From: Astropecten irregularis
Lineage: Eukaryota > Echinodermata > Asteroidea > Paxillosida > Astropectinidae
Reading direction: 5' to 3'
NCBI GenBank assembly: GCA_963971285.1
Contig: OZ020261.1
Coordinates: forward strand, 1,612,001-1,676,000
Length of the DNA: 64,000 nt
A program made the translations under genes and the position numbers. The notes under the pieces are model-generated. The model was not told where the DNA came from and ran no database searches. It saw nothing but the letters and a program-made list of their open reading frames with translations. Each line of letters begins with the position of its first letter. Positions within the stretch are counted from its first letter, which is position 1. Of this stretch, positions 34,701 through 60,546 are shown in pieces.

Positions 34701-37700
34701 ATGTGGTCTGCTCAAAAATAAGTGCTGATCTTTTCAAATGGTGAATGTACCACAACGAGCACATTTTGGGAAACAATAAAGGTTCCTTGAACCTCTTGTT
34801 CCAGACAGTACTCCCATTCAATTTATTTCAATGGAAATAACAAAGCAATCATGAATATTCTCGCGCATGAGGCGAACTGCCATAGATGCTTCCCAGGCGG
34901 AAGGGGTTATATAATATTAAAACAAAATATAGCATAACAATTTGTAAAAACAAAGTAAATTATTTTATATCTTTCAGTTTTCGTCCTGAACAAAGCCCGA
35001 CAGGAGGATTTCCAACTGACCGCTGTCCAGTCCATGCAAACAGCAATTGACCAGCTGTTCAAGGACTCCAAGATGACCTTTCAAGGTGAGTTGACCTTTG
35101 ACCTTTGACCCTGATCAGGTTACAGCTATAATACATCGTTGGTTATTGGTCAATTTGTTTTTCGGATACGAACAACTCATTCCAATCATTTAGATTTCAA
35201 TACAGTGCAATGCCAATATAACAAAAATCAGTGAATGTACATGTTTAGTATAGAACTTTCTTTTGTTTACAAACATTGACTGGTGGTTGGCAATACTTGG
35301 CATGGGCGGCCAAATGTTGCAAATCATTTCATCTTCTTGACAGATGGCGTTACCAAATGCAAAATTTTTGCAAAGTTTCTATAGCTGTACAAAATCATCA
35401 TCATTACTTGTATTGTGTCCATTATATTCAACAATAATTATTTCAATGTTTATGAAACATTGTGTACAAATTGTGGTTATTATGTTCTGCTTTGACGGCT
35501 CGCCACAGTTTCTGCCATCTTGGTTGGCAAACATTTGGGCTGTGACGTTGCAAAAGAAAGGTCTATAGCGATTTGGTCGGCGGCCATTTTTATAAAGCAC
35601 CATGTTGTCCAATGAAGTGCGCCCATTTTTGATAGCTTTTTACACAAGCTCTACATTTTTGCTGCTGTATGTAGGGGTTGTTGGACTGGTCGTGATATTT
35701 CATGGAATCTATTGTTGTTGCCATGGAAGAATTGATTTTGTTTCATTCCATGTTTGAAATTTGAATCAAACTGTTTGGAATGTACGGTGTCTGAGCTACA
35801 TGTTTTATTACTATACCGCATAAATATTCATGACCTAGAGCCAAATCCCAATTGGTCAATTTGTTATCACGTGCCAGTGGATATATTTGCTGATCACCAG
35901 CGAGTAAGCCGGGGAATCTCTGAAGGAGCTGTTACACACGTAACATCTCACTGCTCATGGAACACTGCACTGCGCATCTTTCCTAGTTTACAGTGCGCAT
36001 GACGTTTTGCTGCACGTCTCGACAAAATTGTGGAAAATGAAGAATATATGAGGTTTTTGAGGTATAGTAAAACAAATATCACATGTTTGTGGTTCTGAGG
36101 TGAATTGGAAGAAATTTAACTTAATGTTTCGATCAGAATGCTCTGTTCATCCTCAGAAGGATGCTGGACTCTGGGGGACGTAGAGGCCTAAGTTCTGGAT
36201 CAATTTAGATTGGCAGTAGAAAGGATGCTCTGTTCGTCCTCCGGAGAAGGATGCTGGACTCTGGGGTACGTAGAGGCCTAAGTTCTGGATCAAAAGGATT
36301 GGCAGTAGAAAGGATGTTCTGTTCGTCCTCTGGAGAAGGATGCTGGACTCTGGAGGAAGTAGAGGCCTAAGTTCGGGATCAAAGAATTGGCAGTAGAAAG
36401 GATGTTCTGGCGATGTCCTTTAAATAGCTCTTTCAGCCATCTCACTGTTTCCTTGTTGGGGTTGACGAGATCAAGGTCAATGTCCCTTGGTGGACGGAGG
36501 AGGGTGTGGCACTCGAAGATAATGTGGTGTGTGGTCTGATCGGTGAGGCTGGTGAGGGGATGCATCCCCCAGCGGTGCATGCAGTAGTTGAAACAGCCGA
36601 CTCCTGTCCGCATCCGGTTCAGGTTGACCCATGTGCTTCTTGGAAGCTCTGCTCTTGGTGGCAGCATCGTGTTAGGATTGACTGTGAATTGCAGCGGTGG
36701 GGTGGTCTCCTGCCAGCGAGCTCTCCATGGAGTCAAGGATGTTGAAATTTGATTCTTGGAGATTTGCTGCGTGACGGGAGAAAGGGCATCTGGAAGGGAG
36801 GCGTTGGCAGCCCTGTTACACCTTCTGGACAGTGAGAGTGGATTGGGTGTTTGGGATCCAACATGGCCTTGTTCACTAACTTGGAGGTGTTGTGTGATGC
36901 CTTGTCAGAGAATGCAAGGGTAATTTCAGGTAGTGGGATGAATGACTTTTGATGGAATGTTACAAGAGAGCAGCAATGTTCAGACCCTTTCGTAAATTTT
37001 AACTGATTCCATATCTGCAATGGCAAGTTGGCCTCTGGGAGTGAACACTACTCCTAGGGGGTTATGTAGTTTGTCAATGATCCTCATCATGTGCATCCCA
37101 TCAGCACTGTAGCGGTGAACCTCCCCACTACTGCTGCTGTGAAGCACCACGTAGATGTCCCCAAAGTGGTCACAGCACATCCCGACTGGATTCAGTCGCT
37201 TCCCCTCGACGATGGTATCCACGGAGAAGACCTCATTTCCATCAAAGTCCATGGAAACCAGCTTGCCTCTTTCATAGTTGCTGAAGATGAGATGGCCCTT
37301 GTTGCTGATTGCCAGGCGCCTATCAATGTCCTCAGCTGGTACTGTGTTGATGAGGGCACCGTCAATCTCATGGAGGGAGATTATCTTCCGCTCTACATCA
37401 CCGACTGCGATCCGGTATTTGTCATCAACTGCAATACAGGAGAGGTCTTTCATAGGTTGATAGCCTTCATCTCTTGACGCAACAGGGATGAAGCTGTACA
37501 ACAACCTGATGTCTTCTGCTTTGATTCTCTGGAAGACCTTGACCTCAGGTCGATCGATGATGATCAGTTTGTCGTCGCGAGTGACAGCAAGATCGTAGGG
37601 GTTCTGCAGCTTCCCTGAAGCCTGGTCAGGAGGAGAATCAAAGTAGCCCTGGAACTCACCCACAGGATTGAAAATGCTTACTTTGTTCTCGTCAAAATCC

Positions 37701-40700
37701 CCAACGACTATGTCACCATTTGTTAAGGTGCCAATACTTGCAGCTAACTTGAAATCAGACTTTGGGTTTTTGCGGATGGTTGCCTTCAGAGACCATTCCT
37801 CCTCCACTAGAAGCTTCCCCAGGGAGAGTGCCTCCACTGGATCTGGCTTGAAGCCCAGAAAGTGTGGCAGACCATGCCCTAGGCTTGGCACATGCTGCTC
37901 ATTTATGTCCTGTAAGTTATGGACAAGTTTCTTTTTCAGGTCAAGAAGCTCATATCGACTTGACTGATCCAGAACACCCTCTGCCATTTCCAAGGTGTCC
38001 TGAGCCCACCTCAGGTTCTCGGAGTATGACTCGTGAGCACTTTTCAGCATGTTTCCTCTCTGCTCCACAAGTTTGTGAGCTTCACTCTTCAGGGCATCTT
38101 CGTTTGCTCTAATTGATGCGACCATTTTGTTTGCCTGCTCAGAAATGCCATCCAGAGCATCATGAAGCATCGACTCCAGTCTGCTGGAGGCGTTGTCGAT
38201 GAATGTTTTCCCCAAAACAAACACTTCCGTCCTCTTCTGTGCTTCACAAAGCAGAACTTTTACCTCTTTCCTAGAGGTCATCTCAGCAGGCTCTATGTTT
38301 TCGTAGTCATGTTCCGGCTTGCTGTGATCAAGAGCCGTGCAGACGGCACAGATCAGAACCTGGCAAGACTTACAGAAGAAGCTGACCTCGTAGTTGGCAT
38401 GCTTCTTGCACTTTGGCACCTTGTCTCTCAACTTGCTCTTGAAGGATGCCTTCCCAGACCTCAGGTCATCCATGGTTACGATCTCATGCCTCTTCGTCTT
38501 CACTGCTCTCCGGTGAGCCTTCTCACACTCGGAGCAAAGGTACTCCTTGCAGTCCGCACAGCGTGAGACAGCTTCGTCATCTTCACAGTTCTCACAACCT
38601 ATCCTGGACTTCTGCCGCTTCACCAGAGCCTCCTGAATCATGATCTCCTCCACCAGTGCAGTCAGAGCAAAATTGTCCGAGAGGCCTTCAATGCCATTCT
38701 CGGGAACGCTGGTTTCTTTTCGACAGAGAGGACAGGGAAGCTTGTCGCTGTTGGGAAATTGGTTGCCTTTGTATTTTTTAAGGCACTCAGAGCAGAAACT
38801 GTGAAGGCAGTCCAGTGTCTTGGGACGGTTCAGTCGGTTGAAGCAGATGGGGCACTCCAGGTGTCTTTGGCTTATCTTGTTGAGGACTTCTTCAGTGGTC
38901 ACTTCCTCCATCTTGAAATCTGTTATGTTCAAAGAAAAAGTACATGAGTCTGTGAGTGATACAATAGGTGTAAAGTGGAACGTCACTGGAACGTCAACGG
39001 GATACACAGAAATTGTTCGCTATAGTGGTCGTTCATTAAAGTGAACAATGTTCAGCAGGCCTATACATTGTACATAAAAGTTTGGAGCCAAGGATGATGT
39101 TCGGTTAAGCCAAATGTTCTGTATAGCGGTGTTTGTTATAGCGAGGTTCCTCTGTACTAGTTTATGATGACAGCTTGTCATTGACTGGTCATTGATTTGT
39201 CATCATCGTCATAACGAATTAATTAGCACATAGATACTCTTAGCCTCAACCCACAAGATGAAATTCAGAATGTTTCCCAATTGACTGGCTGTGGCTGTTA
39301 CTGTGGCTGTTGCTACAGCTGTGGCTACGACTGAGGTAATTGGCAGCACAGCCATTTTGTTGAGACATCCCAATTGACTGGCTTCGACCGTGGCTACGGC
39401 CGTGACGTTACAAATATCAAGCCACAAAGGAAGGTGACTTTGTTGTGGCTCGGCTGACCTCAGCGTTTGCATGCTTGTAAACATGGATTCAAAACGTCTA
39501 GATAATATTGGGGGCTTGTCTACGCAGCCAAAAGGTTTGTCCCAACTGTACTGGCTGAATGCAGTTCAAAGACAATGCAGCCACGGCCGTAGTCAACGGC
39601 CACATGTCAGGCAATTGGGACACGGCCTCATTTCCAGATAAACACGGATAATGTTTCAACTTCTGTCCGGGGGGAGGGGGGGGACATGAAACTTAAGAAA
39701 ATCATCAGTCATATTTGACTCATCAGGAATTGAACCACAGTTAAATTAAACAGTGCCTTCCTATATTTTAATGTTTCAGAGATGAAATAACAAATTTGGT
39801 ATCTTCAAGAATATTGAACAAAAGTTAATAATAAAAATGATCAAGGAAATCTCGTTGGAAAAACATCAATGTTATTATTATTATTCATGGTTTATTAAAA
39901 ATCTTTTCCATCGCAGCCAGAGGCTGAATTAGGGAAAATAATACATTTATAAGATAAACAATAAAACTATAATAAACTTGACCTTTAACATGTTAAAAAA
40001 CACCTTGAGAATGGCAAAAAAAATGTAAATGATAAAAAAAAAAAAAGGAGAAAGGGTATGTTCATCAAAACTTGTCGAGAAACATGGACAAAGAATTGTT
40101 TCAGAGAATGACCCATATTTAGATATAAAATGGAAATATTTAAAAAGGGACTAACAAAAGTGTTTCATGTAACTAGGTGTGTTTCCAAGTAGGTCAAAGC
40201 ATGGAGCGATGGTGCTTTAAGACAAGAAGTTACCCATTTTGTGCAGCCCCGCCCCTCAATTAGCGGACCAATTACAGCAATGATTTTATTCAATTTTAAG
40301 TCTGACATGTGCAATGTATGCTTGGAGCATCAGTTTTGTACATGTCACCGGTTGTACTATCTTTTCATAGGGCTGAATACCGAGCAGCGTTATAGGGAGG
40401 ATTTGTTTGTCCGTAAACCTCTTCTGGAGGCTGTGGACAGTAGTTTTTAAAGGCATCCCTATTATAAAAGCTTGAGCTTCAGCAATCTTGATAAATGTAC
40501 CTAGACAGCTAGTACTAGTTGTAAGGGGGGCATGTGCCCTGGTGTGCGTTCCACTCCAGCTAACTACGCGCACAGCGCACAATGTGCGCCACCGTTTTCA
40601 AACCGGAACACGCTGTTCGCCAAACACGCACACAACGTTCGCCCAACATAGCTAACGGTGTAGAGGAGGTGTTTGCTGAAGTTGGCTAACTACATGGAAT

Positions 40701-43700
40701 GAAAGATGGACGCAGTACGCAACACATGTTTGCCATTTGTTGCGTGTGCGTTCCACTACAAAATCCAAGCGTAACGCAAACGTAGCAAACATGTTCCCGT
40801 ATGTGCGCTCAAGCGGAACACACCCCTGGCCAGGTGCCACTTGTTAGGGGGCATAAAAAAACGCAAAGCCGAAATAATTAATATAATAAACGGTAGCTGT
40901 ACTGACAGTGAAATTATCGGAAAACTAATAGGTTACAATGAACAAAGAAGTATTCCAATTTCAAATTGTCTGATTTTTTTTTTCATTGGCATCAGAAGTT
41001 AGTCTAAGCCTAGTGGCACAATTTTAGCACTTCTATTGGCAGATTGGGTGCCATGTTCCCTACATGTAGATCTATATGCCTGAGTGGCTGTCTATGCAGA
41101 ATGTCATATATAGTGCACATTAACGATTACATACATATGTTACTTACCTTCATATGATGTTTAATTAAATTAATACACTTGAACAGAAACTGCAAATTCT
41201 GACAGATTTAGACCAGGAAATTAATCCTGTACTGATTCTCTTATTCATACATGTACGCTGACTGACTATCATTCCCACAATGCACAGCTCACTTCCTCTC
41301 CTACTTGTACATTTCTCATCACTATCTGGGATTTCCCTTGAACTTGAGCTAGACTTGCCTCAGTCTGGTGACCATTTGAACTTTAGACACAATTGAATGT
41401 ACATGTACATTGGCCATGCAGATTATAAGAAATGTATAACGGTACATATTGTGAACATACATTGCTGGCCTACTGCCTATAGTACTGTATATGTACATGT
41501 AACAATACAGTAAAGCAGTGTCATGATCAGTTGCACAAAAACATTACCTGAAAAAAAAATGTATAAAAATGTATGCGTACGTACTTGTTGAAAGGTCAAA
41601 TCTCTATAAATAGTATTTGAACTTCCATGCACAATAACGAATGAACAAACTCTTTCATCAATTGATGTGTTGATTTATGTTGATATGAAGTCAAATATAA
41701 TTTAGCAAATGACTGTTGCAGGATCTAATATTGCAACTTGACATGCCTGAGGATTGTTGTATTAGAGTCTGCCAACTATTATTATTTAGGCCTATCCCCA
41801 GTCCCATTCTTCCCACCCTTTGTAGTGTGGCAACTTTGATCTTGCCTACCTGACCCCTCTGTGTGTGACCAATCCTCTCTCCTATTGTCCTGACTCCCTC
41901 ATCCATACTTTTGTGTTTCCCTTCCCTTCCATGTTCTTGTCCGTAATTCAGTTCGCCTTTGAGAAAGATCCTGTTAGGATCGAAATGCGTCAGGCCCTCC
42001 TAACTTTAAGCATTATTTAGGCCCATTAAATCTATTCAGCCCTACATGGATGATGTGCATATAATTATGTTGGCTGTGTTCCAAATTGTCAATTACTGTA
42101 CCATCGTTCTCGTGCTATTCAGAAGCCAATGAAACCACTCATAAATAATGTTATATCCCACAGATCATAGACATGTGGTTTGAATGTCTTTTGTGTCATA
42201 TAGGTGTGTAGTATGAAGTGTGTAGTATGAACGCATGCAGGTCATGATTGACCCATGTTGAAATTGTGTACATTATGACAGAAGCCCTTTAAATTCAGAT
42301 CTTACAGTACATTCAAATCATTCAGCAAAAATGTTCTATCTTGTGTCTCAGGTTTTGATCAGGGATTCATTTTTCCCAGGTTTGCTTACTAGTCTACATG
42401 TTGGCACATGGTGTAAGAGTGCCGGTACGGTATTCTGGAGGTCGCTCATTCGAATCCCACTCCAGTCAATTGTTTTTGTTTACTATAATTCAATGACTTA
42501 AAATGGATCCAGTCAGTTTCCCTAAGTGTGGTTATTTGGTGATTACATGTTTTTTTTGTTATAATGCTGCGCCTTCAACATGTCTGTACGTGTACAAGTT
42601 ACACTTACAGTTATTATAATCATCAAATAACCACAAGGGAAACTGACTGGGTTATTTTTAAATCAAAGTGAAAGGTGGCAAAAGAAAAATTGACTGCAGA
42701 TGGAGGTGAACCCTCGACCTCTGGAATACCGTACCGGTCGGTGCTCTACCAACTGAGCTATCCAGCCCTATGTTGCAAGTGTACCATATTATCTCTCATT
42801 GTTTTGCTATGTAATCAAGAAGCCATGATTATATTGTTTTCGAGTAAAAGTACTTGTGTGTACGAGTACAAGTCCTTATCTTCTGAGTAAGAGTACATGT
42901 ATCTTCGAAGTACTATTCATATGCCTGTAATTTCTACATGCTAGATTCTTTGTTAGAATGTTCGATTTCATGAACTAGACTAACAATGCTGCATGTAAAT
43001 GGCATGACCATTCTTGAGTACCACAGCATAAAATAATTTGTATAAGCGCCACTGATTGCATACGTTTGGTAATGACTCTGAAAATTTATGGCAATAAAAA
43101 CTTACTTGGTGAGAAGTACAGCTGCTTTGGATAGTATAATGCATATTGAGAAACTTTCAATTCGAAGTACCGCGGTTATGGAAAAATATGTCACTTTTTA
43201 TCTCCAAAAATTACGAATCTGAGAAGCGTTATGGCCGTAACGCTTCTCAGCTATTGACTAACTGTTATCTGGCGTGAAATAACCGCTCTAGTTTGTCGCC
43301 AAAATCTCAAAAACGCTACCACCTTTTGAAGTGAAACTTTCACAGGTTAGTTTTATGGTATATATATTCAATTATATTGGTTTGAAACAAACAGTAGGCT
43401 CAAATTACCAAACGTATGCAATCCCTTTAAATACTCTCACAGACGGCAAATGAGTCGTATACGTTGATGGTCCCACATTTTTCCTTCTTTTTGTCAGAAC
43501 CATATCGAATATCGGTTCATTGGGGTCGATATTGTTGTACCTTTGTATTTTAACAGCCATGTAACTTAACTTAGGGATTTTTTATCGAGTAATGTTTATA
43601 ATCGAGTACGAGTACATTCATGCTCAAGTAAAATTTTTGGATGTCGAGTTCCGAGTATTTTCCAGCCCGAGTACAAGAACCACAGTTGGAGTGCAAGTAC

Positions 43701-46700
43701 TTGGACATTCGAGTATGAGTACGAGTGTGAGTACTCTGAAAAGAGTAGTACTCGAGTACAAGTACCGAGTACGAGTACTACAACACTGGTAGTTGGTAGG
43801 GTAAAACCGCTCTGAAGAGTACCTGTTTATGGGCAAGACGACCAGCAAGGATCTGTCATTGTAAAGTCTGGTGCCAAAGGATACACAAAGGTTTAGAGTC
43901 TGAGCAATTTTAATAGAGATTTACGGGGAGCATTCTTGAGATATGATTGAAAAAAATGAAAACAGTTTGAAAGTTACAGAAAATGTGGTGCCAAATAATG
44001 AAAAGTGCTTTTTGGAACTGAAAAATTAACTATTTTTGAGTGAATGTATTTAACAGAGCAACAGGACAAGCAACGTACGGTATACATAGTGTGTTTTACA
44101 AGGAATTTAATTATTGGTGGACTCGCTGGACTGGTGACCAGTTTAAATGTGTCATGTCAAATGTGATACGATGGATGTATGGCAGTACAGTCATACACAT
44201 TATAATCAATTAAAATGTAAGGAATACATTTCTAGCGTTTTTATTATGTTTCATATAATTTGATACCAACAAAATTATAGATTTTTTGATTATACACCTG
44301 TATTATTAAACATAACTTCTTCATTTTATTTATAAAATTAATTAGTTTTAAGTTTGATAATATTCATTAAATCAACAAACTTTCCATATTTGGCGAGAAA
44401 TCAGTTGTTAGGTAATTATAGAGGAATCATTCAATTTGCCAACCATTCATAAATTCTGGATTGATGAGGTTTCAAAATCAAAGTCTGTTTCCGACAAAAG
44501 TCTAATCTCTGAGTCTTTGATCACAGTATAAAAGACAACTTCTTAAATTTTCATAAATTTTCATAAATTCTAGTAGAAAGGGGAGTTAAGATGGCGAGCA
44601 GTTAATAATTGTGGAACTAAACGTTCCAAGTCAAGGTGCTGCTGAGGGGGGAGGGGGGGGGGGGGGGTGTTAAAGTAGGGAGGGTAGGAATTAATGTCAA
44701 AGTTAAAGAGGATGTTCAACACTCAACAAACATCGCTTTATTTGTTGGAACTATAATCCTTAAATTGCTTGTCATGAGAAACAAAGAATTATCTCACACT
44801 GAACACAGAAAGAGAGTCTTTTTGGATGATTTTTCTCAACTTGCAAGCTCCCCAATATTCAGATTCTCTGAATTACGGCAATGGGGGCAGCAGACAAATT
44901 TGTGTGATTTTGTGACGTCAGATATGGGAGCGTTTTGTTCAAAAGAAAAGGCTCCCATATCTGACGTAACAAAATCACACAAATTTGTCTGCTGCCCCCA
45001 TTGACGAAATTCAGCGAATCTTAATTTTGGAGAGCTTGCGGGCCGAGAGAAAAATCATTAAAAAAAACTCTGTTTCTGTGTTCAGTGTGAGATAAATATC
45101 TTCTAGGTCTCTAGTCTAGCATTCTCGCCGATGTATACCTTCCCAGATTCACTGGAGATCATAAACACACCAGCTTTCATTATGTCTGTTTGTCCTTGTT
45201 GGACTGTATTACACCTTGAAGATTCTTGGTAGATGAAAGGTATAGCCTACCCCCAGAGGCCAGCTTGGATATGCTGAAGCTTATGTGATGTATTGCCAGA
45301 GTTTGGAAGGGTTACTGTGACCTCAGGTAGTGGGATAAATGACTTTTGATGGAATTTTTATTAGCAGCGATATTCAGACCCTTTCGTAAATTTTAACTGA
45401 GACCTTTTCTGCAATGGCCAGTTCGCCTTTGGGAGTGAACACCAGTCCTAAGGGGTTACGTAGTTTGTCAATGATCCTCGCCATGTGCATCCCATCAGCA
45501 CTGTAGCGGTGTACCTCCCCACTCCAGATTTTATCGCTGGCGTGAAACGTCAGGTAGATGTCCCCAAAGTGGTTACAGCTTACCCCGGACGGTTTCAGTC
45601 GCTTCCCCTCGATGATGGTATCCACGGAGAAGACCTCCTTTCCAGCAAAGTCCATGGAAACCAGCTTGGCCCCTTTGTAGTTGCTGAAGATGAGATGGCC
45701 CTTGTTGCTGATTGCCAGGCACCTTCCAATGGCCTCAGCTGGTACTGTGTTGATGAGGGTACCGTCAATCTCATGGAGGGAGATTATCTTCTGCTCTACA
45801 TCACCGACTGCGATCCGGTATTTGTCATCAACTGCAATACAGGAGAGGTCTTTCATAGGTTGATAGCCTTCATCTCTTGACGCAATAGGGATGAAGCTGT
45901 ACAAGAACCTGATGTCTTCTGATGTGGTTGCCTGGAAGACCTTGACTTCAGGTCCATCGATGATGATCAGTTTGTCGTCTTGAGTGACAGCAAGATCGTA
46001 GGGGTTCTGCAGCTTCCCTGAAGGCTGATCAGAGGGAGAATCAAGGTAGCCCTGGAATTTACCCAGAGGATTGAAAATGCTCACTGTTTTCTTGTCAAAA
46101 TCACCGATGACTATGTCACCATTTGTTAAGGTGCCAATAACCCTCTTGAAATCAGACTTTGGGTTGCTGCGGATGGTTACCTTCAGAGACCATTCCTCCT
46201 CCACTAGAAGCTTCCCCAGGGAGAGTGCCTCCACTGGACCTGGCTTGAAGCCCAGAAAGTGTGGCAGACCGTGCCCTAGGCTTGGCACATGCTGCTCATT
46301 TATGTCCTGTAAGTTATGGACAAGTTTCTTTTTCAGGTCAAGAAGCTCATATCGACTTAACTGATCCAGAACACCCTCTGCCATTTCCAAGGTGTCCTGA
46401 GCCCACCTCAGGTTCTCGGAGTATGACTCGTGGGCACTTTTCAGCATGTTTCCTCTCTGCTCCACAAGTTTGTGAGCTTCACTCTTCAGGGCATCTTCGT
46501 TTGCTCTAATTGATGCGACCATTTTGTTTGCCTGCTCAGAAATGCCATCCAGAGCATCATGAAGCATCGACTCCCGTCTGCTAGAGGCGTTGTCGATGAA
46601 TGTTTTCCCCGAAACAAACACTTCCGTCCTCTTCTGTGCTTCAGAGAGCAGAACTTTTACCTCTTCCCTAGAGGTCATCTCAGCAGGCTCTATGTTTTCG

Positions 46701-49700
46701 TAGTCATGTTCCGGCTTGCTGTGATCAAGAGCCGTGCAGATGGCACAGATCAGAACCTGGCAAGACTTACAGAAGAAGCTGACCTCGTAGTTGGCGTGCT
46801 TCTTGCACTTTGGCACCTTGTCTCTCAACTTGCTCTTGAAGGATGCCTTCCCAGACCTCAGGTCGTCCATGGTTACGATCTCGTGCCTCTTCGTCTTCAC
46901 TGCTCTCCGGTGAGCCTTCTCACACTCGGAGCAAAGGTACTCCTTGCAGTTGGCACAGCGTGAGACAGCTTCGTCATCTTCACAGTTCTCACAACCTATC
47001 CTGGACTTCTGCCGCTTCACCAGAGCCTCCTGAATCGTGATCTCCTCCACCAGCGCAGTCAGAGCAAAATTGTCCAAGAGACCTTCAATGCCATTCTCGG
47101 GAACGCCGGTTTCTTTTCGACAGAGAGGACAGGGAAGCTTGTCGCTGTTGGGAAATTGGTTGCCTTTGTATGTTTCCAGGCATTCAGAGCAGAAACTGTG
47201 AAGACAGTCCAGTATCTTGGGACGGTTTATTCGGTTGAAGCAGATTGTGCACTCCAGGTGTCCTTGGCTTATCTTGTTGAGGACCTCTTCAGTTGTCACT
47301 TCCTCCATCTTGAAATCTGTTACATTCAAAGAAAAAGTACCCGTTGTGAGTGGTACAGTAGTTGTACAGTGAAACACGCCGGGATGCACAGAAATTGTAT
47401 ACAAATAATGAATGTTTATGAGTTGAATGGTAAAAATAATTTCATGAGGTGACAGATGGACTGTTCCATTTCACGAGGCGAAGCCGAGTGAATGGAACAG
47501 TCCATCTGTCACCGAATGAAATTATTTTTTCCATTCTACGAATGTGAAACATTCATTATTTGTTTTATATAACATCTAAGTAGATCTTTGTCATTTGATT
47601 TTGATTGGAGGATAATATTTTAAGAGTTAGCGAGACAAAAAAAGCTTAAAATCTTGGCAAACTATATGCTCTTATTGCAGTAACGCGCGTTGCACACCAA
47701 CGCGTACGCGCGCACGCAGTGACAAATAAATGGAATGCCGCTTGACCAATCACGTATGGCGTGCAATGGTACAAATCGGATGGCACCAAAAATGCACGGT
47801 GGATGGAACAAATTTCAACAGTTGTGACGTAAGCCATGAATTGGTCTATTTATCAAATATCACGTGACATACAATCCTCCAATCAAATGACAAGGATCTA
47901 CTAAGGTGTTATATAATTCGCTATAGTGGTCGTTCATTATAGTGAACAATGTTCAGCAGGCCTATACATTGTACATGTTGTACAGTACATAATAATTGGT
48001 TGGTCAAGGATGTCGTTCGGTATAGCCAAATGTTCGGTATAGCGGTGTTCGTTAGACATGTTAGAGGTACGCTCCTCTGTACTAGTTTATGATGACAGCT
48101 TGTCATTATTTTGTCATTGATTTGTCATCAATGAATTTATTAGCACACAGATATTCTGAGCCTGAACCCACAAGATGAAATTCAGGCTGTGTCCCAATTA
48201 ACTGGCTGCGGCTGCGGCTGCTGTAATTGGCAGCGGCTGCGGTAATTGGCTGCGGCTGCGGTAATTGGCTGCAGCTGCGGTAATTGGCAGTGGCTGCGGT
48301 AATTGGCAGCACAGCCATTTTCTTGCCACATCCTATTGTCTGGCTTCAACCGCCGCTAGGACCGTGACATCACGAATATCACGCAACAAAGGAAGGTGAC
48401 TTTGGGCCTGTTTGTTTAACGCACAGGATCCCAGATTTGCAGATCCACGTCCTATGCACTGTATGCTAAAATGGGATCCGGATCAGTAGAATCCGTGATC
48501 CTGTGCATTAAACAAACAGGCCCTTTGTTGTGGTCCGGCTGCCCGCAGCATTCGCATGCTTGTTAACATGGATTCAATTCGTCTATGATTGAGGATGTGC
48601 ATACGCAGCCAAAAGGCGCGACCCAATTCTACTGGCTGAATGCAGTTTGCGGAAGACGCAGTTGCAGCCAGGGCCGTAGTCAGCAGCCGCAGCCAATCAT
48701 TTGGGACACGGCCTTATTTCCAGATAAACACAGATAATGTTTCAACTTGAGTCGGGGGGGGGGACATGAAACTTAAGAAAATCATCAGTCATATTTAACT
48801 CATCAGGAATTGAACCATTTTCTAAATTACAACCTTCATAAACTGCCTTCTTATGTTTTAACGTCTAAATGCAGAGATTGCTGTCTGGGTCTGTCCACAT
48901 TAATGGTACCTTTTTTTAATACAAGATAACTTTTGGGGTGTGAAATGGGAGGTGGATTTAAGATCAGGTTTTTGGCTCATTTTTGTTTCCTGAACATTCC
49001 TGTATTCATTCGTGGACTGAAAAGGAATAGGCTGATTCACTGGATATGTAGGAAATTACAAGGTCATCTTTAAGATGAAATGAACGATTATGTTCATAAC
49101 ATGGACAGACATTCTTGTGTTATATAAGTATTTTTCTTGTTATTATTAATGCAGACTTGTTCCGTATACATGTATATTACTTGTTCAATGTAAACTTGTC
49201 TTCACTCAAAATTAAAGCAACTTATTTGATATTTAAGAAATTAGGATGCGTCTTAAACAATGTTTGTAACATGGACAGACATTTTGTGACAAATTTCTGT
49301 CCATGTTACAAACATTAAATCTTGAAGATGTAGACCCTCCGGTTGCTAAAATACCTAGAGGTAATATACTATGATTGGCCAGTGGCAATCCCTCAATGGA
49401 TAGCTCTGCTGTAGAAACAAAACTTGGGATAATTAATTCATTTCATTACTAATTCCCAACACTTTATGATGAAATATCTGTCCATGTTACAAACATTACA
49501 TCTTGAATATGATCCCCTGTAATATCTTCAATACTAAGGAATTTATCAAACTTTTTGGCTGGCCAAGTTCTTACAAGAATGTGGGATGTAGTGAAAGAGA
49601 AAACATGGCAAATTACTTGATGTATCAACTCCTGTCCACGGTTCCCTCTAAATGTCACACTAAAAGTCCCCATTAGTGTGGACAGACCCATCTTCAAGAG

Positions 49701-57829: not shown

Positions 57830-59290
57830 CGGATGGCCACATTTGGAGTCTGTAATCAGATTCTTAAAGGTGGCCACACTTGGAGATTATCCTTGAGGAT
57901 GGCCTGACTGGAGATTCTGTACCCAAATCGTAAAGGATGGCTACATTGGAGATAACATGTCCTTAAGGATGGCTACGGTGGAGGTCCATAAGTCCTCTAC
58001 CTAGATCCTCAATGAGGCTACATGGAGGTTCCTAGCTCCTTGGTCATTTAATTTCCAGACCCTTAATGAGGGCTATGTTTGAGGTCAAGAGGTCCTATAC
58101 TCAGATCCTCAAGGAGGCTGGATACATGGAAAGTTCCTACATATAGGTCATTTTACTCAGATATTTAATGAGAGCTACATTAAAGGTCCTGAGGGTCTAT
58201 ACCCATATCCTTACAAGGAGGCTACCTGGGAGGTTCATAGGTCCTATACCCAGAACCTCAAGGAGGCTACATGTGCATGGGATATTCATTCGTCACACAT
58301 CCAAATCCTCTATGAGGCTACCTGGAGGTTCATCCTCTACCCAGATCCTCTATGAGGCTACCTGGAGGTTCATCCTCTACCCAGATCCTCTATGAGGCTA
58401 CCTGGAGGTTCATCCTCTACCCAGATCCTCTATGAGGCTACCTGGAGGTTCATCCTCTACCCAGATCCTCTATGAGGCTACTTGGAGGTTCATCCTCTAC
58501 CCAGATCCTCTATGAGGCTACCTGGAGGTTCATCCTCTACCCAGATCCTCTAAGAGGCTACCTGGAGGTTCATCCTCTACCCAGATCCTCTTTGAGGCTA
58601 CCTGGAGGTTCATCCTCTACCCAGATCCTCTAAGAGGCTACCTGGAGGTTCATCCTCTACCCAGATCCTCTATGAGGCTACCTGGAGGTTCATCCTCTAC
58701 CCAGATCCTCTTTGAGGCTACCTGGAGGTTCATCCTCTACCCAGATCCTCTTTGAGGCTACCTGGAGGTTCATCCTCTACCCAGATCCTCTTTGAGGCTA
58801 CCTGGAGGTTCATCCTCTACCCAGATCCTCTAAGAGGCTACCTGGAGGTTCATCCTCTACCCAGATCCTCTAAGAGGCTACTTGGAGGTTCATCCTCTAC
58901 CCAGATCCTCTTTGAGGCTACCTGGAGGTTCATCCTCTACCCAGATCCTCTTTGAGGCAAACTGGAGGTTCCTAGGTACTATACCTATACCTGTACATGT
59001 ATCTTCTAAGCTAATTGGAAGGTTCATGGGTCCTTTACCCAGATCCTCAAGGTGGCTTCCTGGGAGGCTTGTGACCCCTACACCCAGATTCTTTAAGAGG
59101 TTACATCCATGGTCATTCCTATGTCTATTACCAGATCTTCAATGAGGCTCCATGGGAGGTCCTGTTGCCAGATCCTCAAAGAGGCTTATGGGAGGTTCAT
59201 GGGTCCTTTACCCAGACCCTCATATCAAGGAGACTAACTTGGAGATTCATAGGTCCGATACCTAGATCCTCAATGAGTGCCAAGCTTGGT
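57830..59290. repeat. Degenerate flanks of the 40-bp minisatellite
   Basis: Before and after the regular array the phrases GAGGTTC, CCCAGATCCT and AAGGAGGCTAC keep recurring at looser spacing, so the regular block looks like a recently homogenised core of an older, longer array. Confidence 0.7.
58300..58960. repeat. 40-bp minisatellite in the probable SMG9 3'UTR
   Basis: About 16 units with landmarks CCAGATCCTCTATGAGGCTA and CCTGGAGGTTCATCCTCTAC. Variation is mainly TATGAGG / TAAGAGG / TTTGAGG and CCTGG / CTTGG. Unlike a CRISPR array there are no unique spacers. Confidence 0.95.
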
Positions 59291-59466: not shown

Positions 59467-59550
59467 ATATTTGTTTTAGTTGTGCCTTTATTTTGTGGTT
59501 GCTTGCAACTTTTCCTTTAAACTTTGAAGGTGTACTTACAGAATTGTTGA

Positions 59551-60150
59551 GTCGAAGGTGGTGGCAATGCCATGTCTGACTGTGGTGAGCAACCACCTGA
59601 CAGAACAGACAAACAAGCAGACAAATGTAGAAGGTGGTGGCAATGCCATGTCTGACTGAGGTGAGCAACCACCTGACAGAACAGACAAACAAGCAGACAA
59701 ATGTAGAAGGTGGTGGCAATGCCATGTCTGACTGAGGTGAGCAACCACCTGACAGAACAGACAAACAAGCAGACAAATGTAGAAGGTGGTGGCAATGCCA
59801 TGTCTGACTGAGGTGAGCAACCACCTGACAGAACAGGCAAACAAGCAGACAAATGTAGAAGGTGGTGGCAATACCATGTCTGACTGAGGTGAGCAACCAC
59901 CTGACAGAACAGACAAACAAGCAGACAAATGTAGAAGGTGGTGGCAATGCCATGTCTGACTGAGGTGAGCAACCACCTGACAGAACAGGCAAACAAGCAG
60001 ACAAATGTAGAAGGTGGTGGCAATGCCATGTCTGACTGAGGTGAGCAACCACCTGACAGAACAGACAAACAAGCGGACAAATGTAGAAGGTGGTGGCAAT
60101 GCCATGTCTCACTGAGGTGAACAACCACCTGACAGAACAATTTGACAAAA
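59551..60150. repeat. 76-bp minisatellite, eight units
   Basis: Units begin at 59551, 59627, 59703, 59779, 59855, 59931, 60007 and 60083 (GTAGAAGGTGGTGGCAATGC ... CTGACAGAACAGACAAACAA). Only a handful of single-base differences, so it is young or homogenised. Confidence 0.95.
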
Positions 60151-60546
60151 AAACAGACACCTGAGCAAGAATGTCATTTTTTCTACGGTTTATTATTTAC
60201 ATAACTTGCAAAATCATAAGCCAATTTTCTAAACTGAAATTGATGCATTACAAGTTTTTAAAACCAAATATGGAAGGCTATGTCCTCTAAAAAATATAAA
60301 AATACATGTACATGTATTTCATTTTAGTCTGATTGTATATTAAACATTTGAGCCAAAGGATTGAAAAATTTGGAAAACAATTTTCAACATGAACCGAAAT
60401 AATTTTTTAAGGCTGCATATTTTTGTACCAGAAAATTTGTTTTAGGTAATTTGTTTTTATTTACACATTTTATTGAAATAGACTTCATTGTAATTATGGT
60501 TCAACGTCTAGGCCAGCCTTTTATAAGTTTTAGTCTAATTAATTTT

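Follow-up and report, generated by a model that had tools for sequence, protein, structure and literature searches.

A constrained ligase half and a probably diversifying propeller face in an expanded echinoderm TRIM-NHL family

The window analysed here, a stretch of 64,000 nucleotides from Astropecten irregularis (contig OZ020261.1, positions 1,612,001 to 1,676,000), carries two tandem genes, copies A and B, for TRIM-NHL proteins with 89% protein identity. These copies probably belong to an echinoderm TRIM-NHL family that has expanded and in which a constrained ligase half is combined with a diversifying recognition face. The part of the protein comprising the RING, the B-boxes and the coiled coil (the N half) is constrained, and amino-acid change in the C-terminal propeller keeps roughly level with silent change or exceeds it. 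Two separate arrays elsewhere in the genome, denoted C17 and C8, appear, on loop classes taken from a modelled fold and from motifs, to concentrate the excess change on a single propeller face, made up of the D-A and B-C loops, and to conserve the A-B and C-D turns; in both of these related arrays positive selection is clearly present. The original prediction, made from the letters of the window alone, had offered either positive selection on the propeller or gene conversion of the N half; the former is clear in the two arrays, and copies A and B by themselves prove neither, two sequences being unable to decide between selection and relaxation. A and B may themselves be recognition-type TRIMs.

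Both reading frames are open where they had been predicted, on the minus strand (Table 1). A RING at the N terminus of A and B is recognised by zf-C3HC4 and zf-RING_UBOX above the Pfam cut-off, followed in both copies by two stretches of B-box zinc finger (zf-B_box); a filamin domain was not reported by Pfam in either copy. The Pfam NHL match is weak and confined to A. A profile of 14 propellers of the family matches NHL domains whose structures are solved, those of Thin, TRIM2, TRIM71 and Brat (best E 1.3e-34), Brat being covered over profile positions 7-264 of 267, and to judge from the sequence the C-terminal domain is a six-bladed NHL propeller. In combining RING, B-box and a putative coiled coil with such a propeller the A/B family resembles TRIM2, TRIM3, TRIM71/LIN-41, Brat, Mei-P26 and Thin.

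Aligned differences between A and B number 19 in columns 1-384 and 53 (gaps included) thereafter, in keeping with the earlier hand counts of about 17 and 50-60, and the stretch then noted as identical (residues ~122-189) is indeed identical in protein from 121 to 189. By the Nei-Gojobori method (NG86), nonsynonymous (dN) and synonymous (dS) divergences are 0.023 and 0.070 in the N half and 0.104 and 0.106 in the propeller; by domain they are 0.045 and 0.164 in the RING, 0.012 and 0.074 in the B-boxes, and 0.023 and 0.035 in the coiled coil with its linker. Fitted pairwise by codon likelihood (kappa 3.3), the dN/dS ratio (omega) is 0.437 in the N half and 1.316 in the propeller. With synonymous rates left free, a single omega for the two halves is rejected (p 0.015), and equality of their synonymous rates is not (p 0.28). 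The contrast between the halves thus sits in amino-acid rather than silent change, at a level between neutral and selected. Mere relaxed constraint had been associated beforehand with equal silent divergence along the gene and a propeller omega well below 1; silent divergence indeed does not differ significantly between the halves, and the omega of 1.32 is not of that kind.

The mitochondrial contig of the assembly has echinoderm traits: its COX1 is legible with the echinoderm code, AAA encoding Asn in the STNHKDIG motif, and ND1 is encoded on the other strand, an arrangement of the asteroid type. A protein search of the whole genome (475.7 Mb) returned at least 71 matches, a lower bound, with 69 of 342 candidates scored. 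Among the matches listed, 20 lie in C17:2.77-2.99 Mb and 15 in C8:3.63-3.96 Mb. Among the C17 copies that were compared, identity is 85-92%, and against A it is 35-37%. Three of the 20 C17 matches, a copy carrying an internal stop, an incomplete copy and one further locus (L056), stand outside all tests; the remaining 17, with five copies on C10 and C24, form the clade of 22 copies in which selection was chiefly studied.

Over the 136 pairs of C17 copies, the mean NG86 omega is 0.457 in the N half and 0.976 in the propeller, at similar dS (0.079 and 0.090). Among all 22 copies the single-ratio model (M0) gives 0.674 and 1.325 respectively, the latter exceeding 1 with twice the log-likelihood difference (2dL) at 10.1, and in the propeller the model with positively selected sites (M2a) is preferred over M1a by 2dL of 230 for 17 copies and 385 for 22. 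Sites marked as positively selected by a grid Bayesian scan, here called hot sites, number 38 of 248 in the propeller, and the string of residues at these sites is distinct in 22 of 22 copies. For their location, the propeller was divided into a top (D-A and B-C loops), a bottom (A-B and C-D turns) and strands on a structure model predicted from the two window sequences, a model of low confidence (mean predicted local distance difference test score, pLDDT, 48.9), in which strands A1 and D2 were added by hand; its strand pattern fits the register of NHL repeats. By these classes hot sites occupy 29/76 top positions, 0/48 bottom, 9/123 strand and 0/1 outside, with at least one in each of the 12 top loops, and omega is 2.01 at the top (p 1.4e-7), 0.39 at the bottom and 1.04 in the strands. 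Of 45 register shifts tried, shift 0 was the best, while a shift of -10 would place 2 hot sites at the top and 22 at the bottom.

Could such a signal be generated by the models themselves, through recombination or misaligned loops? The halves do look recombined, and there are indels within the loops. Yet 24 data sets simulated under M1a, with genealogies shuffled in 16 (4 or 10 genealogies, 8 data sets each), gave a largest 2dL of 36.0 against the 230 observed, these simulations covering the propeller only and drawing their parameters from an earlier M1a fit that stopped short of its optimum. Counts from 11 disjoint pairs, which are independent of any tree, give a pN/pS of 1.41 at the top (one-sided p 0.003), 0.36 at the bottom, 0.72 in the strands and 0.52 in the N half, and the loops are anchored by conserved motifs. 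An artefact of this type is therefore very improbable. The alternatives considered here and below are not mutually exclusive, and their probabilities need not sum to one.

The C8 array provides a second replicate, for which the direction of the effect was set down before testing, although part of the sequences had already been seen. Eight of its 15 matches were sampled, exon 1 in eight copies and exon 2 in six; in those for which exon 2 was found, the coding sequence breaks off after the first blade and resumes in a downstream exon. Exon 2 entered the test in part, columns with fewer than three codons being skipped. With loop classes assigned by our own reading of motifs, made after viewing the alignment, omega is 0.49 from RING to coiled coil, 1.89 in the top loops, 0.21 at the bottom and 0.52 in the strands, and columns variable in amino acid make up 48/62 of the top versus 8/35 of the bottom (p 3.5e-7). 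Over four subsets the top omega ranges from 1.46 (without the divergent copy L051) to 2.29 (exon 1 alone); it was 2.14 with five exon-2 copies and became 1.89 once a sixth, L054, was added.

A number of observations weigh against a diversifying face on a constrained ligase half, apart from the manner in which the loop classes of the two arrays were obtained. In the C17 clade the N half also favours M2a (2dL 57, 17 copies) and also holds hot sites (37/395, 22 copies), purifying selection passes 0.9 at 2/48 bottom sites only, and the coding dS of 0.08-0.09 exceeds the divergence of the 3' flanks. Within the window pair, a propeller omega of 1 is not rejected (p 0.36), the changes are without bias for a face (21/78 top versus 14/55 bottom, p 1.0), the homologues of the C17 hot sites carry only a slight excess of changes (11/37 versus 39/229, p 0.07), and omega at these homologues is 0.66. 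Finally, the propeller dN of 0.104 is below the divergence of the homologous A/B flanks (0.17-0.25), and thus any statement that the propeller evolves faster than neutral hinges on coding silent sites as the yardstick.

Part of this evidence is what would be expected if the propeller of A and B were merely relaxed after duplication, its surface loops drifting and its strands being held, a possibility to which we give a little less than an even chance. Besides the omega indistinguishable from 1 and the missing face bias, the changes in the pair avoid strands (35/133 loop versus 15/133 strand positions, p 0.003), and the omega differs from 1 (p 0.028) only when equal synonymous rates are imposed on the halves. 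On the other hand, both frames are fully open with in-frame indels only, and in the two related arrays the omega of this domain comes to about 2 on one of its faces. Polarisation by a paralogue at C8:21.3 Mb places 11 changes in A and 10 in B, with 47 lacking an assignable direction.

One question then is whether gene conversion keeps the N halves alike, such that the propeller just retains an older divergence. For the pair, silent divergence in the coding sequence is below that of the homologous flanks (33/416 versus 150/921 differences, p 2e-5; Kimura two-parameter distance, K2P, 0.17-0.25 in the flanks), which implies that the coding sequence has been homogenised, or that silent sites are constrained, or that the flank, possibly a dispersed repeat, is a poor yardstick. 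Across four domains silent divergence runs from 0.035 in the coiled coil to 0.164 in the RING, without significant heterogeneity (p 0.098), and the halves, as noted above, differ significantly in nonsynonymous and not in synonymous change, which speaks against conversion of the N half as the cause of their contrast. Likewise, a synonymous-run test for conversion in A and B gave no signal (p 0.52), and the identical protein stretch holds three silent changes (codons 142, 148 and 171), so that it represents a conserved protein rather than a fresh conversion tract. The longest identical nucleotide run is 141 (permutation p 0.016 over the whole gene), and clustering of identity within halves has p 0.27 in the N half and 0.003 in the propeller.

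In the C8 array, dS is 0.089 in the N half and 0.209 in the propeller (0.087 and 0.139 without L051), so that conversion of the N half is likely there. At C17, across the 136 pairs, the synonymous distance of one half is not correlated with that of the other (Spearman 0.06, Mantel p 0.36), a result that we interpret as recombination among the copies. Divergence of the 3' flanks at C17 is small (mean K2P 0.017 and 0.041 in the first 200 columns), less than the propeller dN of 0.0875. Homogenisation is seen, but in places other than the one originally proposed: in the whole coding sequence of the pair relative to its flanks, and at C8 in the N half relative to the propeller. The similar silent divergence of the two halves of A and B argues against it as a process restricted to their N half. 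Conversion cannot lift omega to 2 on one face, and as an account of the overall pattern it is rather unlikely. As a separate observation, the 17 C17 loci keep close similarity over about 80 bp upstream of the ATG, past which alignment fails, and on the 3' side the similarity of most pairs extends over hundreds of bases.

If, then, a constrained ligase half does carry a diversifying face, the RING module would act as a constant ubiquitin-ligase effector and the top face of the propeller would bind a varying ligand, such as pathogen proteins or other changing partners. The tandem copies would supply a germline repertoire; exchange between copies might spread working effector halves, with selection keeping the propellers different. 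The window pair would show the pattern on a small scale, being younger or less diversified. An alternative identity for the ligand is RNA, the copies differing in RNA specificity and not in immune recognition. NHL domains bind RNA via their top surface (passages of PMC9070667), and Brat, Mei-P26 and LIN-41 use the top face for this purpose (passages of PMC9070667 and PMC9634614). Across the 22 copies, however, the net charge of the top face lies between -1 and +8, not uniformly positive, and it is -4 in A and +2 in B, an argument that is weak because linear counts ignore geometry. We consider a diversifying RNA-binding face unlikely.

Several known systems come close to this one. Fish finTRIMs and primate TRIM5alpha (PRY-SPRY) likewise combine an expanded family with selected loops in the C-terminal domain and with a few selected sites in the RING/B-box/coiled-coil part as well, the finTRIM B30.2 loops being under positive selection (passages of PMC2657112), but their recognition domain is B30.2 and not an NHL propeller. 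In the HET-D/HET-E (HNWD) WD40 proteins of Podospora the same two loops hold the selected residues as here: for HET-E these are placed in the d-to-a loop and the b-to-c turn, on a top platform (passages of PMC1805685). Unlike the echinoderm genes, with distinct blades and a TRIM ligase effector, the fungal ones have WD40 repeats that are nearly identical and undergo concerted evolution, both inside a gene and from gene to gene. TRIM56, a TRIM with an NHL-like C-terminus and an antiviral role (passages of PMC9634614; PMC6623546), may be set beside the family by description. The four human TRIM-NHL members have well-conserved orthologues, and their domains vary at the blade-connecting loops and the top opening (passages of PMC9634614); unlike these, the echinoderm family forms tandem arrays with a diversifying face. 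A 2008 survey of TRIM genes reports that, among invertebrates, only its filamin-related subgroup has expanded (passages of PMC2533329).

It is about an even call whether these observations together describe an echinoderm germline TRIM-NHL repertoire, with a propeller face hypervariable in register in every blade and recombined onto a shared ligase half, that is, an invertebrate counterpart of the antiviral TRIMs convergent with fungal allorecognition propellers on their two loops. TRIM-NHL proteins are mainly seen as conserved regulators of development and of RNA, and arms races among TRIMs are documented for B30.2. If true, the NHL propeller face would be an added recognition fold in animal innate immunity, with its residues named. 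Among the titles and abstract openings in the capped lists of one open-access library we found no report of positive selection on a TRIM NHL propeller, nor of a diversifying NHL face in TRIM arrays.

Table 1. Features of copies A and B and their surroundings (positions in the window)
Feature	Position	Strand	Description and basis
Copy A	36980..38911	-	Single-exon open reading frame (ORF), 643 aa TRIM-NHL; ORF and Pfam RING, B-box, NHL
Copy A RING region (residues 1-72)	38696..38911	-	Pfam
Copy A B-boxes (73-210)	38282..38695	-	Pfam zf-B_box, 2 stretches
Copy A coiled coil and linker (211-384)	37760..38281	-	Putative, placed by its location after the B-boxes and before the propeller
Copy A NHL propeller (385-643)	36983..37759	-	Six blades predicted; family profile match
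Copy B	45374..47308	-	Single-exon ORF, 644 aa TRIM-NHL, tandem paralogue of A
Copy B RING/B-box/coiled coil (1-384)	46157..47308	-	
Copy B NHL propeller (385-644)	45377..46156	-	
A 3' flank	36890..36979	-	Homologous to B 45281-45373, K2P 0.245
A 5' flank	38912..39774	-	Homologous to B 47309-47398 and 47917-48864, K2P 0.17-0.19
About 520 bp in B 5' flank, absent from that of A	47399..47916		blastn block jump

The insertion upstream of B looks, by eye, like a mobile element. Just 3' of the same copy, at 44830-45052, lies an inverted repeat with 110-nt arms, 87% complementary and 3 nt apart. Ten neighbouring ORFs, of 173 listed, were scanned, and none gave a Pfam match above the cut-off, one giving a match below it. 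Elsewhere in the assembly, the nuclear contig segment G000:C25:9951047-9952018 (L047) is COX1-like with seven in-frame TGA codons and is probably a nuclear copy of mitochondrial DNA, and G000:C131:32162-33484 (L045), a COX1-family match with a 552-codon frame free of internal stops, may belong to a bacterial contig in the assembly. Two tandem arrays occupy 58181-59080 and 59475-60291 of the window, with periods of 40 and 76 bp and cores 96-99% alike.

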